A DNA stretch of 32,830 nt from a virus. The notes below the pieces were generated by a model. The model did not search any database. It saw only the letters and a list, made by a program, of their open reading frames with translations, and had not been told where the DNA came from. Of this stretch, positions 12,861 through 32,830 are shown piece by piece. The stretch covers positions 1-32,830 of the IMG/VR virus record IMGVR_UViG_3300042731_004793, one strand, 5' to 3'. Both the position numbers and the translations under genes were made by a program. Within the stretch, counting starts at the first letter, position 1, and every line of letters starts with the position of its first letter.

Positions 12861-13157
12861 ATGATGGACCCCAGCTTTTGGAAGTGGCTGGCGGGTCTGG
12901 CGGCTACCGCGTGGGCGGCGATCATCTCCTGGAATTGGAGACGAGTTGTGGCCACATTAGACCGAGTACAGAAAGAGAAAGCCAACAAGGAATCGACTGA
13001 CGCTCGGTTTGCCGAGTTGAGGGGCGACATATCCGTATTGCTGGCGAAGGTCGAAGCTCACGACCTGAGAGATCGCGCGGCACACGAAGAGTTGCAAAGC
13101 GAGATCGCTAAGACCAATATCACCCTTGCTCGGATCGAGGGGAAACTGGACGGTTGA
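12861..13157 (+). CDS. Small membrane protein with coiled-coil tail
   Basis: A 98-residue protein starting at ATG 12861 (or 12864), touching the previous stop. One transmembrane segment (about residues 6-26, FWKWLAGLAATAWAAIISW) is followed by a long charged helix, 'RRVVATLDRVQKEKANKEST' and onward to 'ARIEGKLDG', predicted coiled coil. The layout is that of XhlA-like lysis accessory proteins or phage inner-membrane lysis regulators, with the order of helix and anchor reversed from XhlA. It probably works with the holin candidates downstream. Confidence 0.7.
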   Translation: MMDPSFWKWLAGLAATAWAAIISWNWRRVVATLDRVQKEKANKESTDARFAELRGDISVLLAKVEAHDLRDRAAHEELQSEIAKTNITLARIEGKLDG

Positions 13158-13177
13158 ATCTTCCACAGGGAAAAACC

Positions 13178-13510
13178 ATGCTGATTACTGTTGCCGGGAT
13201 CATCACCGCGGCCTATGGTGTGATCACAGAGGGGCCGACCGTGTGGCAGAGCGTAGGGTGGACATCACCGGCGCACCACGCGACCGACATTGCCGGAGCT
13301 TATGCGAGAGCCGATGAGATCGAGCAGGCATTGGCGGGGGAGATCAAGGGCGTATCCGATTACTTGCGCTGTCGGGACTTTCGAGAAGAGCTCACCGAGC
13401 TTCTGAAACAGCAGAGAGCCGGTGACACGTCGGTTGAGACATCAGAACGAATTGCCACATTGCGCCGACTCATGGAACAGAAGTACGAGTGCGATCGATT
13501 CGACGAATGA
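13178..13510 (+). CDS. Small membrane protein, lysis region
   Basis: ATG 13178 is preferred to an in-frame TTG at 13154 because AGGGAA lies 5-10 nt before it and the protein then begins with its membrane segment (MLITVAGIITAAYGVI). The remaining residues are soluble and helical with two Cys (YLRCRDF and KYECDRF). At 110 residues with an N-terminal anchor and a periplasm-sized helical domain it could be an inner-membrane spanin, but no embedded outer-spanin frame with a lipobox was found. It precedes the parS site and endolysin. Confidence 0.65.
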   Translation: MLITVAGIITAAYGVITEGPTVWQSVGWTSPAHHATDIAGAYARADEIEQALAGEIKGVSDYLRCRDFREELTELLKQQRAGDTSVETSERIATLRRLMEQKYECDRFDE

Positions 13511-13513
13511 GAG

Positions 13514-13529
13514 TGTTTCACGTGGAACA
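13514..13529. promoter_or_regulatory. Exact chromosomal-type parS site
   Basis: TGTTTCACGTGGAACA matches all 16 positions of the reverse complement of the Bacillus subtilis parS TGTTCCACGTGAAACA, the ParB-binding site conserved across bacterial phyla. It fills 16 of the 22 bases between the stop at 13510 and the endolysin ATG at 13533. The GTGGAA half also lies where the endolysin SD would be. A random exact match in this window on either strand is expected about 1.5 times in 100,000. Binding by host or phage ParB is inferred. Confidence 0.75.
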
Positions 13530-13532
13530 TGC

Positions 13533-13991
13533 ATGAACAGAATTGAAACAAGCACTTACGAGTTGGCGCAGCGATATGTCGGCACAAAAGAGGTCGCGGG
13601 AACAGTCAACAATCCGCTGATTATGGCGATGCTTCGGCTTGATGCCGGATGGCCGGAGGCGGACGAAGTGCCCTGGTGTAGCGCGTTCGCGAATTGGATC
13701 GCATGGAACCTACGGGTGTGTCGGTCGAAGAGCTTACGAGCGAGGTCGTGGCTTCTCGTCGGTGAGTGCGTGGATTTGCAGCCCGACGTTGGCATGGACG
13801 TAGTGATTTTGCAGAGAGGTGGGGGCGACCAGCCGGGGGCCGATGTAATTGAGGCTCCAGGGCACGTGGGTTTTTTCGGTGGGTTTAACGATCATTCTGT
13901 GATGGTGCTCGGGGGGAATCAGGGCGATACCGTTTCGCTGCGACCGTTCCCTATCGAGCGAGTTTTGGGATTCAGACGATTAGGGAGATAG
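13533..13991 (+). CDS. Endolysin, TIGR02594-type CHAP/NlpC-P60-like peptidase
   Basis: A 152-residue protein. The start at 13533 is chosen because the family begins close to 'TYELAQRYVGTKEVAG'; longer in-frame reading upstream overlaps the previous gene and is not protein-like. The catalytic Cys is C49 in 'EVPWCSAFANWIAW' and the His is H111 in 'APGHVGFFGGF', followed by 'VLGGNQGDTVSLRPFP', all hallmarks of TIGR02594 lysins. These cleave peptidoglycan peptides (amidase/endopeptidase). There is no signal peptide or SAR helix, so release to the periplasm should depend on a holin encoded nearby. The parS site sits directly upstream. Confidence 0.85.
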   Translation: MNRIETSTYELAQRYVGTKEVAGTVNNPLIMAMLRLDAGWPEADEVPWCSAFANWIAWNLRVCRSKSLRARSWLLVGECVDLQPDVGMDVVILQRGGGDQPGADVIEAPGHVGFFGGFNDHSVMVLGGNQGDTVSLRPFPIERVLGFRRLGR

Positions 13992-13994
13992 ACC

Positions 13995-14285
13995 ATGCTG
14001 GAAACACTCTTAACCGTGGTCATACCGGGCGCTGTGTCGTGGCTTGTGGCCATGTTTCGGCAACACGTCACGCCGTTGATACCGAATCACATGATGCCGT
14101 TCGCGATGGCATTTGGCGGAGCACTGATTACGTCACTCGCGGCGATATTCAACATCGACATACCGAATCTCGATCTGATTAGCAGCGACAAGATCGTTGC
14201 AGGATTTCAGGGGCTGGTGGGTGGCCTGTCGTCGGTCGGTCTGCATCAGCTCTACACGAAGCTGACAGGTCCGGACGAATCTTAG
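13995..14285 (+). CDS. Holin or antiholin candidate
   Basis: A 96-residue protein, 3 nt after the endolysin. It has two to three hydrophobic segments: residues about 4-20 ([17 protein letters not shown]), 34-52 ([19 protein letters not shown]) and 67-84 ([18 protein letters not shown]). Size, membrane topology and neighbours fit a holin. A second, more recognisable 3TM-type holin lies at 14948, so this could be the antiholin or a pinholin partner. Confidence 0.65.
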
Positions 14286-14310: not shown

Positions 14311-14946
14311 ATGAAAGACCTGATGATTTTTGCCTTCTTGTATTGCCTGTGCATTGGCGCGGCGCACGCGGGAACGAAACATTACGGAGATCTCGACGAT
14401 GACGATGTTGTGATCGTTCAGGGACCAGCCGGCGAACCGGGTCCACCGGGACCACAGGGAGAGGCAGGGCCACCCGGAGAAACAGGCCCACAGGGGCCAC
14501 CGGGCCTCGATGGTGCTCCCGGCCCACAGGGTCCGAAGGGTGATACAGGGGCACAGGGGCCAGAAGGCCCACAGGGGCCACAGGGGCCGCAGGGAGAGCC
14601 GGGAACCGACGGAGCCATCGGGCCACAAGGCCCACAGGGAGAAGTCGGCCCACAGGGAGCCACAGGACCGCAGGGAGAGCGTGGACCGCAGGGCATGCTC
14701 GATTTGCAGCAGTTCGACGAGATGCGCGATTACATGAGCGCAGTGAACGCTTTACAGGTTCACATGCCGAGTGCGCCCGGTAAGAGTCGAGTTACCGTTG
14801 GGACGGGCAACGCATATCGACGTACCGCTGTTGCGATTGGTTACAGTCGCATGTTCGACAATCCGGAGAAACCCATACTGACGCTCGGTGTGTCGAAGTC
14901 CGGCAGCGAGAAAGTCTGGCAGGCCGGTTTATCGTTCGAGTTCTGA
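14311..14946 (+). CDS. Collagen-stalk, YadA-anchored surface protein (trimeric autotransporter-like)
   Basis: A 211-residue protein in four parts. Residues 1-20 are a signal peptide ([17 protein letters not shown]). Residues 21-37 are a short acidic head ([10 protein letters not shown]). Residues 38-127 are 30 uninterrupted Gly-X-Y triplets, rich in GPQ, GPP and GE(P/A/T), a collagen-like triple-helix stalk. Residues 128-211 are a coiled-coil neck then a YadA-type anchor: '[20 protein letters not shown]', '[11 protein letters not shown]', '[10 protein letters not shown]', ending 'WQAGLSFEF' with a C-terminal Phe. YadA anchors trimerise as a 12-stranded outer-membrane barrel that exports the stalk, and collagen stalks also trimerise, so the parts agree. 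It lies between two holin-like genes. Probable roles: lysogenic-conversion adhesin or receptor masking. Confidence 0.85.
14422..14691 (+). repeat. Collagen-like 9-bp codon-triplet repeat (30 units)
   Basis: This 270-bp stretch encodes 30 Gly-X-Y triplets without a break. At DNA level GGCCCACAGGG-like blocks recur, giving a low-complexity stretch prone to unequal exchange. The antisense strand is also open here, which is a by-product of the GPQ codons. Confidence 0.9.
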
Positions 14947-31573: not shown

Positions 31574-32070
31574 GCAAAAGCCATGTGTAGGCAAAAGGCC
31601 CCAACATGTGCAAAAGGCCCCAACATGCGAGAAAGGCCCCAACATGCGAAAAAGGCCGAACATCTGCAAAAGGCCAAACATGAGGCAAAAGGCGAATTGC
31701 TTAGATACATCGATGTGAGGCAAAGGCCCCAACATAAGGCAAAAGGCAAATAGCACGGATACATGTGACATAGGCAAAAAGGCCCCAACATGTAGGAAAG
31801 GCAAAAGGCAATGCCCCGAAAAGGCAAAAGGCCAAATGCACAGATACATGTGCAGATAGGCAAAAAGCTCCAACATCGCAAAAAGGCAAAGGCAAAGGCA
31901 AAGGCCCCATAAAGGCAAAAGGCGAGGGGGGGTCGGGTCTGTGCACATGTGGCCAAAGGCAAAGGCAAAGGCAAAGGCAAAAGCGAGGCGGGGGGCGGTA
32001 GCTCCGGCCTCTCGATCAGTCAAAAGGCCCCAACATCAGGCAAAAGGCCGTGTGCTGTGGGGCAATCCAA
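31574..32070. repeat. Iteron-like repeat array
   Basis: GGCCCCAACAT occurs exactly six times (31597, 31616, 31635, 31725, 31781, 32026), with degenerate copies at 31654, 31672 and 31867. The first five copies have a period of 18-19 bp, near two helical turns, separated by A-rich linkers. GGCAAAA blocks, GATACAT (31704, 31758, 31843) and two GGCAAA runs (31885-31902 and 31958-31981) are interspersed. There is no plausible gene on the + strand. The layout resembles plasmid iterons or centromere-like arrays. Confidence 0.85.
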
Positions 32071-32347
32071 GAGAGTAGATAAGGGAAGGCGAGCAAGCGT
32101 GCGCGCTGCAGGCCCTATGCACATGCGGAATCGTCGGGGATCGAGGGAGCGGACGGACGGGGCGGTACGGACGGACGGGACGGGTGATGCACGAGAGGAT
32201 GGTACGGACGGGGGGGGGGTGAGAAAAAAAAACGAAAACAGGTTCTTTCTGGAACGTGAAGCCGACGGGTATTTCGCGACGCCGGTGCTCCACCAGTTTG
32301 CAGATCCCGGTTTACATTTCGTTTCGCCGTAAAGTTGGGGCCGGGGC
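32070..32347. repeat. G-rich repeats and homopolymer tracts
   Basis: ACGGACGG and GGTACGGACGG repeats (about 32149-32210) run into a G10 tract (32210-32219), then TGAG and an A9 tract (32224-32232). An open frame crosses the segment but its product is low-complexity and no SD is present, so I do not call a gene. Apart from these repeats nothing else is visible before the promoter region at 32348. Confidence 0.7.
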
Positions 32348-32418
32348 CATGACTCGCCGTGACGCGCCTTACCCGGCATGACTTGTCGGTGACTCGCCTT
32401 CCGACGCGATGCTATGAT
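32348..32418 (+). promoter_or_regulatory. Direct-repeat operator and promoter before the ParB-domain gene
   Basis: Two imperfect direct repeats (32348-32370 and 32377-32400) share CATGACT....(G)GTGAC.CGCCTT. They are followed by TATGAT (32413-32418), an almost perfect -10 with the GC before it, and GTGACT (32389-32394) 18 bp upstream as a possible -35 within the second repeat. Autoregulation by the ParB-domain protein or another DNA-binding protein is conceivable. Confidence 0.5.
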
Positions 32419-32448
32419 CGGGCGCGGAGCTTTCTGGACGGGTGGAGC

Positions 32449-32830
32449 ATGGCGGTACGGAAACGGACGGCAAAGAAAAAGGCATCTACGGCAGGGAAAT
32501 TGAACAAGACGGTTTTCGAGGTAAAACCACGGAAACTCGCGTCAATTAAGCCTTACGAAAACAACCCGAGATCGAACGAGAAAGCCATCGCGCGGGTGGC
32601 TGAATCCCTGACAGAGTTCGGGTGGCAACAGCCGATAGTTGTCGATGGTCGGGGAGTGATTATTGCCGGGCATACCCGGTACGAGGCAGCGAAACTTCTC
32701 GGCATGGAAGTAGTGCCGGTACACGTTGCCCGAGGTCTGAGCAAGGCGCAGATTCGAGCGTATCGGATTGCGGATAACGCGACAGCGGATTATTCCGATT
32801 TCGATCTGGCAAAGCTGCGGGAAGAAGTCG
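32449..32830 (+). CDS. ParB/Srx-domain protein (N-terminal part)
   Basis: ATG 32449, SD GGTGGAG; no stop before the window end, so at least 127 residues. After a Lys-rich tail (MAVRKRTAKKKAS) come 'KLASIKPYENNPRSNEKAIA', 'ESLTEFGWQQPIVVD', 'GVIIAGHTRYEAAKLLGMEV' and 'LSKAQIRAYRIADNATAD', a clear ParB N-terminal domain with the GxIIAGHxR phosphate/CTP-binding-type motif. The IADN segment is typical of phage/ICE proteins where this domain is fused to a DNA methyltransferase, which would lie beyond the window. It is either that or a stand-alone ParB-like protein. Confidence 0.85.
   Translation, partial: MAVRKRTAKKKASTAGKLNKTVFEVKPRKLASIKPYENNPRSNEKAIARVAESLTEFGWQQPIVVDGRGVIIAGHTRYEAAKLLGMEVVPVHVARGLSKAQIRAYRIADNATADYSDFDLAKLREEV

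Follow-up and report, generated by a model that had tools for sequence, protein, structure and literature searches.

A chromosomal-type parS site in the endolysin leader

The stretch of viral DNA analyzed here, which we call the window, is a 32,830-base IMG/VR record. Among its lysis genes it carries an exact parS site, TGTTTCACGTGGAACA, at positions 13514-13529, with no mismatches. A preliminary description of this DNA had placed an exact parS before the endolysin gene, and this is borne out: the gap that holds the site is 22 nt long and runs from the TGA at 13508-13510 to the endolysin ATG at 13533. Allowing up to three mismatches from TGTTYCACGTGRAACA, we found no second candidate parS in the window. 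The features used in the analysis are as follows:

12861-13157, plus strand: 98-aa ORF with a hydrophobic N-terminus followed by a coiled-coil-like stretch (by eye)
13154-13510, plus strand: 118-aa ORF immediately 5' of the parS gap, with no family match
13514-13529, plus strand: near-palindromic chromosomal-type parS, TGTTTCACGTGGAACA, its letters identical to all four phi29 parS sites
13524-13526, plus strand: GGA in the right half of parS, a probable (weak) Shine-Dalgarno core, judged from the sequence
13533-13991, plus strand: endolysin, CHAP-like/TIGR02594, 152 aa (family match; start codon supported by the alignment of relatives)
13995-14285, plus strand: holin (phrog_1129)
32359-32829, plus strand: ParB_N-domain protein, cut by the end of the record (profile match)

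The endolysin matches TIGR02594 above the cut-off, CHAP below the cut-off, and phrog_1259, and its start codon is backed by relatives (e.g., MNKLEISAYELAQRF in Marinobacter). The GGA at 13524-13526 lies 6 nt from this ATG, and GGA-type sites are found at comparable distance in several endolysin relatives. The probable ribosome-binding site of the endolysin gene, with this GGA as its possible core, shares bases with the right half of parS. Upstream, the 98-aa ORF is a possible lysis-cassette protein. A collagen-like (GPQGPQ) tail-fibre protein at 14311-14946 adjoins the lysis genes, and a single ORF of 2221 aa at 4657-11322 matches structural phage proteins in scattered low-complexity segments.

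It could be argued that the element works in the transcript, as a hairpin (UGUUUC-ACGU-GGAACA) that masks the ribosome-binding site of the endolysin gene and so controls its translation. The predicted minimum-energy fold does pair the two halves of parS and covers both the GGA and the AUG, but its stability is not clearly above that of shuffled sequences (z = -1.40; 20 of 200 were at least as stable), and the leaders of the endolysin relatives, inspected by eye, have no such hairpin motif. This explanation would also leave the exact letters of parS unaccounted for, and we give it hardly any credence.

Exact parS matches in viral DNA exceed chance

Exact matches to one 16-mer are expected 1.5e-5 times in the window, and 3e-5 times when the four usual Y/R variants are allowed; the former value is the one given in the preliminary description, and it is correct for one exact sequence. 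A single match chosen after reading the sequence is open to selection, and we therefore turned to an empirical comparison with control motifs. In IMG/VR, exact TGTTTCACGTGGAACA was found in at least 120 stretches, as was the degenerate parS motif (also at least 120), versus one match for the letter-reversed 16-mer and four for a scramble preserving the CACGTG core. Of 50,697 GenBank phage records, 286 contain the canonical palindrome, 147 contain TGTTTCACGTGGAACA, and 58 contain TGTTCCACGTGGAACA, with both reversed controls at zero. Exact matches in viral DNA are thus at least 30- to 120-fold more numerous than controls, so that, at face value, chance would contribute no more than about 1-3% of them. 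When linked by their proteins at E 1e-20, the listed members of the set of at least 120 loci with TGTTTCACGTGGAACA form 59 groups, of which the largest has 48; since a few big lineages hold many of the viral sites, chance may account for more of the isolated cases, the site in the window among them, than this overall figure suggests. Viral parS sites are intergenic in 80 of 239 distinct cases, compared with 9% of random positions (crude gene calls; p = 3e-26), and for the TGTTTCACGTGGAACA variant the share is 35 of 127 sites.

Could the match in the window still be a coincidence of 16 bp, with three of the bases already set by a Shine-Dalgarno GGA? The placement of the GGA suits a ribosome-binding site, the window has one site only, and the endolysin relatives have no parS at the same place. 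Against these points stand the very small expectation for the window and the excess of viral matches over controls, and we consider that parS at 13514-13529 is very unlikely to be a coincidence.

Phage carriers and fixed positions of parS

Among GenBank phages, the canonical form was found in those of Listeria (87 records), Microbacterium (49), Arthrobacter (29), and Gordonia (25), and also in phages of Bacillus, Lactobacillus, Ruegeria, and others. The form present in the window, TGTTTCACGTGGAACA, occurs in phages of Pseudomonas (36), Arthrobacter (28), Bacillus (24), Listeria (10), and Stenotrophomonas (7), and in microviruses. Escherichia and Salmonella are absent from every top-ten host list and from the matches listed, these being raw record counts without denominators. 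RaK2-like Klebsiella phages are an exception and have one parS form, located within coding sequence; their Klebsiella host is not known to have ParABS. Viral parS sites are located in terminal repeats, gaps, and genes, and several viral lineages hold parS at one fixed place (among loci chosen by the motif). Sites inside direct terminal repeats are found in phiPsa374 (L372:389-404) and Vibrio phage phi 3 (L377:821-836). Some viral contigs carry clusters of exact parS (11 in L182, 12 in the record G046 (L061), and also L031). Exact parS is also recurrent in the microviruses of INPHARED (ssDNA, about 5 kb), several times within replication initiator genes.

One fixed place lies upstream of terL. 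Adjacency to terL may be in part due to chance, because terL is universal, and we therefore repeated the test with loci picked by terL alone: 80 loci were chosen by the terminase protein only, and 74 of them had at least 160 nt upstream. Exact parS is found within 160 nt upstream of terL in 57 of these 74 loci, nearly always 107-152 nt before the gene, and in 19 of 24 representatives whose terL DNA is less than 90% identical. An inverted repeat, TTGCCTA...TAGGCAA, mostly follows this parS (L274-L352, e.g., L282:9893-9908). Three loci (L297, L334, and L338) lack both parS and the inverted repeat, with a single clean gap in their place; the two behave as one insertion/deletion unit. The nearest cultured relatives of this family are the Pelagibacter phages HTVC027P and HTVC023P. 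HTVC027P carries CGTTTCACGTGAAACA (one mismatch) between terS and terL, and parS was not found in the parts read of six other relatives. These marine podoviruses near HTVC027P and the window phage have in common an exact chromosomal-type parS and no HTH_ParB; in the terL family, however, the site is fixed at 107-152 nt before terL and usually accompanied by the inverted repeat, whereas the window phage is unrelated and carries it at another position.

No phage-encoded reader of parS found

We searched for the protein that would read the site. HTH_ParB (PF17762) was above the cut-off in none of the 71 parS-bearing or parS-family phage records tested, namely 50 large parS-bearing viral records, 11 GenBank phages (ten with an exact site and HTVC027P with its one-mismatch site), and 10 terL-family records. 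Contamination by host chromosome was considered as the source of viral parS and appears unlikely, because HTH_ParB is above the cut-off in none of the 50 large records and terL, terS, or portal genes are the neighbors of many sites. The window itself shows no HTH_ParB within the 32.8 kb of this incomplete record, and no HTH_ParB gene was found beside parS in the manner of a phage-plasmid-type ParABS; a ParB gene may lie in the remainder of the genome.

The window does encode one ParB_N-domain protein, at 32359-32829. ParB proteins carry the signature motifs GERR and ENxxR. In this protein, GHTRYEAA replaces the former and DNATADYSDFD the latter; it scores below the TIGR00180 cut-off (33.7 versus 58.45 bits), and no HTH_ParB was found in the portion inside the record. 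It is nearest to phrog_620 and to the ParB_N-methyltransferase fusion phrog_498, and such fusions are common in phages (PMC12704722). From its sequence, it looks like a phage protein of the ParB_N/methyltransferase type and would not be expected to read parS. Since this is the sole ParB_N protein, has no HTH_ParB, and shows GHTRYEAA in place of GERR, we reject a phage-encoded ParB as the reader for now. Just 5' of its gene lies a long repetitive purine-rich stretch at 31900-32330 (aaaggcaaaggc, gggacggacggg).

Endolysin relatives and a possible control of lysis

The preliminary description had proposed to look for the site at the same position in related phages. It is absent there, among relatives that are distant: of the loci that encode an endolysin relative, 30 viral and 13 bacterial, none was found to have parS at the endolysin start, and the leaders of eight relatives (53-65% endolysin identity) carry no parS motif. 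One of these eight, G004, carries TGTTCCACGTGGAACA at a distance of 3.1 kb upstream of the endolysin. At E 1e-5, the eight share no other gene with the window, except for a weak recombination-exonuclease match in G007 (the Marinobacter locus was compared with the window genes at E 1e-3). As they share little else with the window, they test the endolysin module and not the phage. Searches with the tape-measure protein and a 716-aa protein gave just distant partial matches and no close relative of the whole phage, and none of the parS-bearing loci that share single genes with the window is a true relative. The tape-measure protein resembles those of Alteromonas, Vibrio, and Marinomonas phages. 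The best endolysin relative, 65% identical, comes from Marinobacter zhejiangensis, where we found a single HTH_ParB and a single exact TGTTCCACGTGGAACA; the link of the window phage to a Marinobacter host rests on this one mosaic gene. The host is probably a non-sporulating gammaproteobacterium.

The location of parS within the lysis cassette invites another explanation, in which ParB spreads over the holin-endolysin region and lowers its transcription until diluted or withdrawn, delaying lysis. There is precedent for such an effect in Pseudomonas aeruginosa, where ParB represses the genes adjoining parS3 and parS4 (PMC5521831). No sigma-70-like promoter, however, was seen within 1.5 kb of the site, and therefore ParB would need to act on elongating polymerase. 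Moreover, no other phage examined here has parS at the endolysin start, the sites elsewhere being at terL, terminal repeats, structural genes, and small ORFs, and three of the four phi29 sites are outside the endolysin gene. Silencing of the lysis genes, as envisaged in the preliminary description, thus found no support beyond the position of parS: no relative found has parS before the endolysin, no promoter was seen, and the site overlaps the probable ribosome-binding site. We regard the control of lysis as an unlikely role.

A probable orphan parS for the host ParB

The explanation we favor is that the 16-mer is an orphan parS, on which host ParB would load to tie the phage genome to the segregating nucleoid. 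The sequences show the identity of the 16-mer, its enrichment in phages, the absence of HTH_ParB, and the positional conservation of parS in other phages, whereas ParB binding and tethering are inferred from ParB biology and from phi29. We consider this reading reasonably likely as a whole. Taken separately, binding of host ParB to parS at 13514-13529 appears highly probable, and a tether or segregation role for the site is about an even proposition. Since parS is far above chance in phages, it is probably a handle for the host segregation protein. In the mechanism we propose, host ParB-CTP would load on the phage parS and slide onto flanking phage DNA; ParA/SMC, together with ParB bridging, would keep the phage genome attached to the nucleoid as this segregates, and the genome might in this way be positioned, retained, or passed on along with the host chromosome during slow or paused infection. 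The position in the endolysin leader would be incidental, this being one of few non-coding gaps, with the GGA of parS doubling as the ribosome-binding site. That the window phage has one parS, compared with four in phi29, counts against the orphan-parS reading, as do the sites of the RaK2-like Klebsiella phages. The motif is genuine and very likely functional as a ParB site. What the preliminary description had said of host ParB stands in part: a genuine host-type parS is very probable, given the enrichment, the lack of HTH_ParB, and the positional conservation elsewhere, and of the functions listed there, tethering is plausible and lysis silencing found no specific support.

The closest parallel is phi29, which has four exact copies of TGTTTCACGTGGAACA and nothing at one or two mismatches; one copy is inside the endolysin gene and the other three are elsewhere. 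Trapping of the phi29 genome in spores depends on Spo0J (ParB), according to Meijer et al. 2005 as cited in PMC9437464. The two phages share the same TGTTTCACGTGGAACA, the absence of HTH_ParB, and host ParB as the (predicted) reader. They differ in the number of sites, four in phi29 and one, in the endolysin leader, in the window phage, and in the host, which forms spores in the case of phi29 and is probably gammaproteobacterial and non-sporing in that of the window phage. Hence the statement that phages have no described use for such a site is wrong in general, in view of the four identical 16-mers of phi29 and the spore trapping, as cited; for this position, we found no report of parS before an endolysin gene. 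Likewise, a search of mainly freely accessible literature returned no report on pelagiphage parS or on orphan phage parS other than in phi29. Such sites, known in kind from phi29, seem under-described. Compared with chromosomal ParABS, the window site exactly matches a common chromosomal form of parS, but it is on a phage, with no adjacent parAB and away from the host origin. The parS-like elements of SGI1 hijack the ParABS of IncC plasmids, borrowing the ParB of another replicon (PMC10954446). SGI1 and the window phage are both mobile elements with a parS mimic and a borrowed ParB (proposed here for the phage); SGI1 mimics a plasmid parS, in two copies, and this is experimentally shown, whereas the site in the window is of chromosomal type and known from sequence.

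The SGI1 case also bears on the possibility that parS is a ParB sink or SMC-loading decoy, in which ParB would be diverted from the host origin to the replicating phage DNA, to the detriment of host segregation or division. The SGI1 mimics destabilize the helper plasmid (PMC10954446), every replicated phage genome adds one parS, and several phages have many sites (12 exact in one 169-kb record). One site per genome would nevertheless make a weak sink, and the observations made here fail to separate a sink from tethering; we find a sink role improbable.

If host ParB does load on phage genomes in this way, many phages beyond phi29 would exploit the host segregation machinery through a borrowed parS, including phages of the non-sporing hosts Listeria, Pseudomonas, Arthrobacter, Microbacterium, and probably Pelagibacter relatives, and would have a simple route to position, hold, or inherit their DNA without lysogeny. 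Our survey suggests a broader pattern of parS in phages, to which the window adds one member. It is a further and rather improbable step that orphan parS is general in phages of ParB-bearing non-sporulating hosts, fastening the incoming genome to the host segrosome, and that ParB loading at the endolysin leader couples lysis to the segregation state. Use of host ParB can be put to a direct test in cultured phages with parS. In two phages, Arthrobacter DrRobert and Gordonia Orchid, parS is 1-2 kb from a genome end, and near-end sites, those in the terminal repeats included, may act early after entry.
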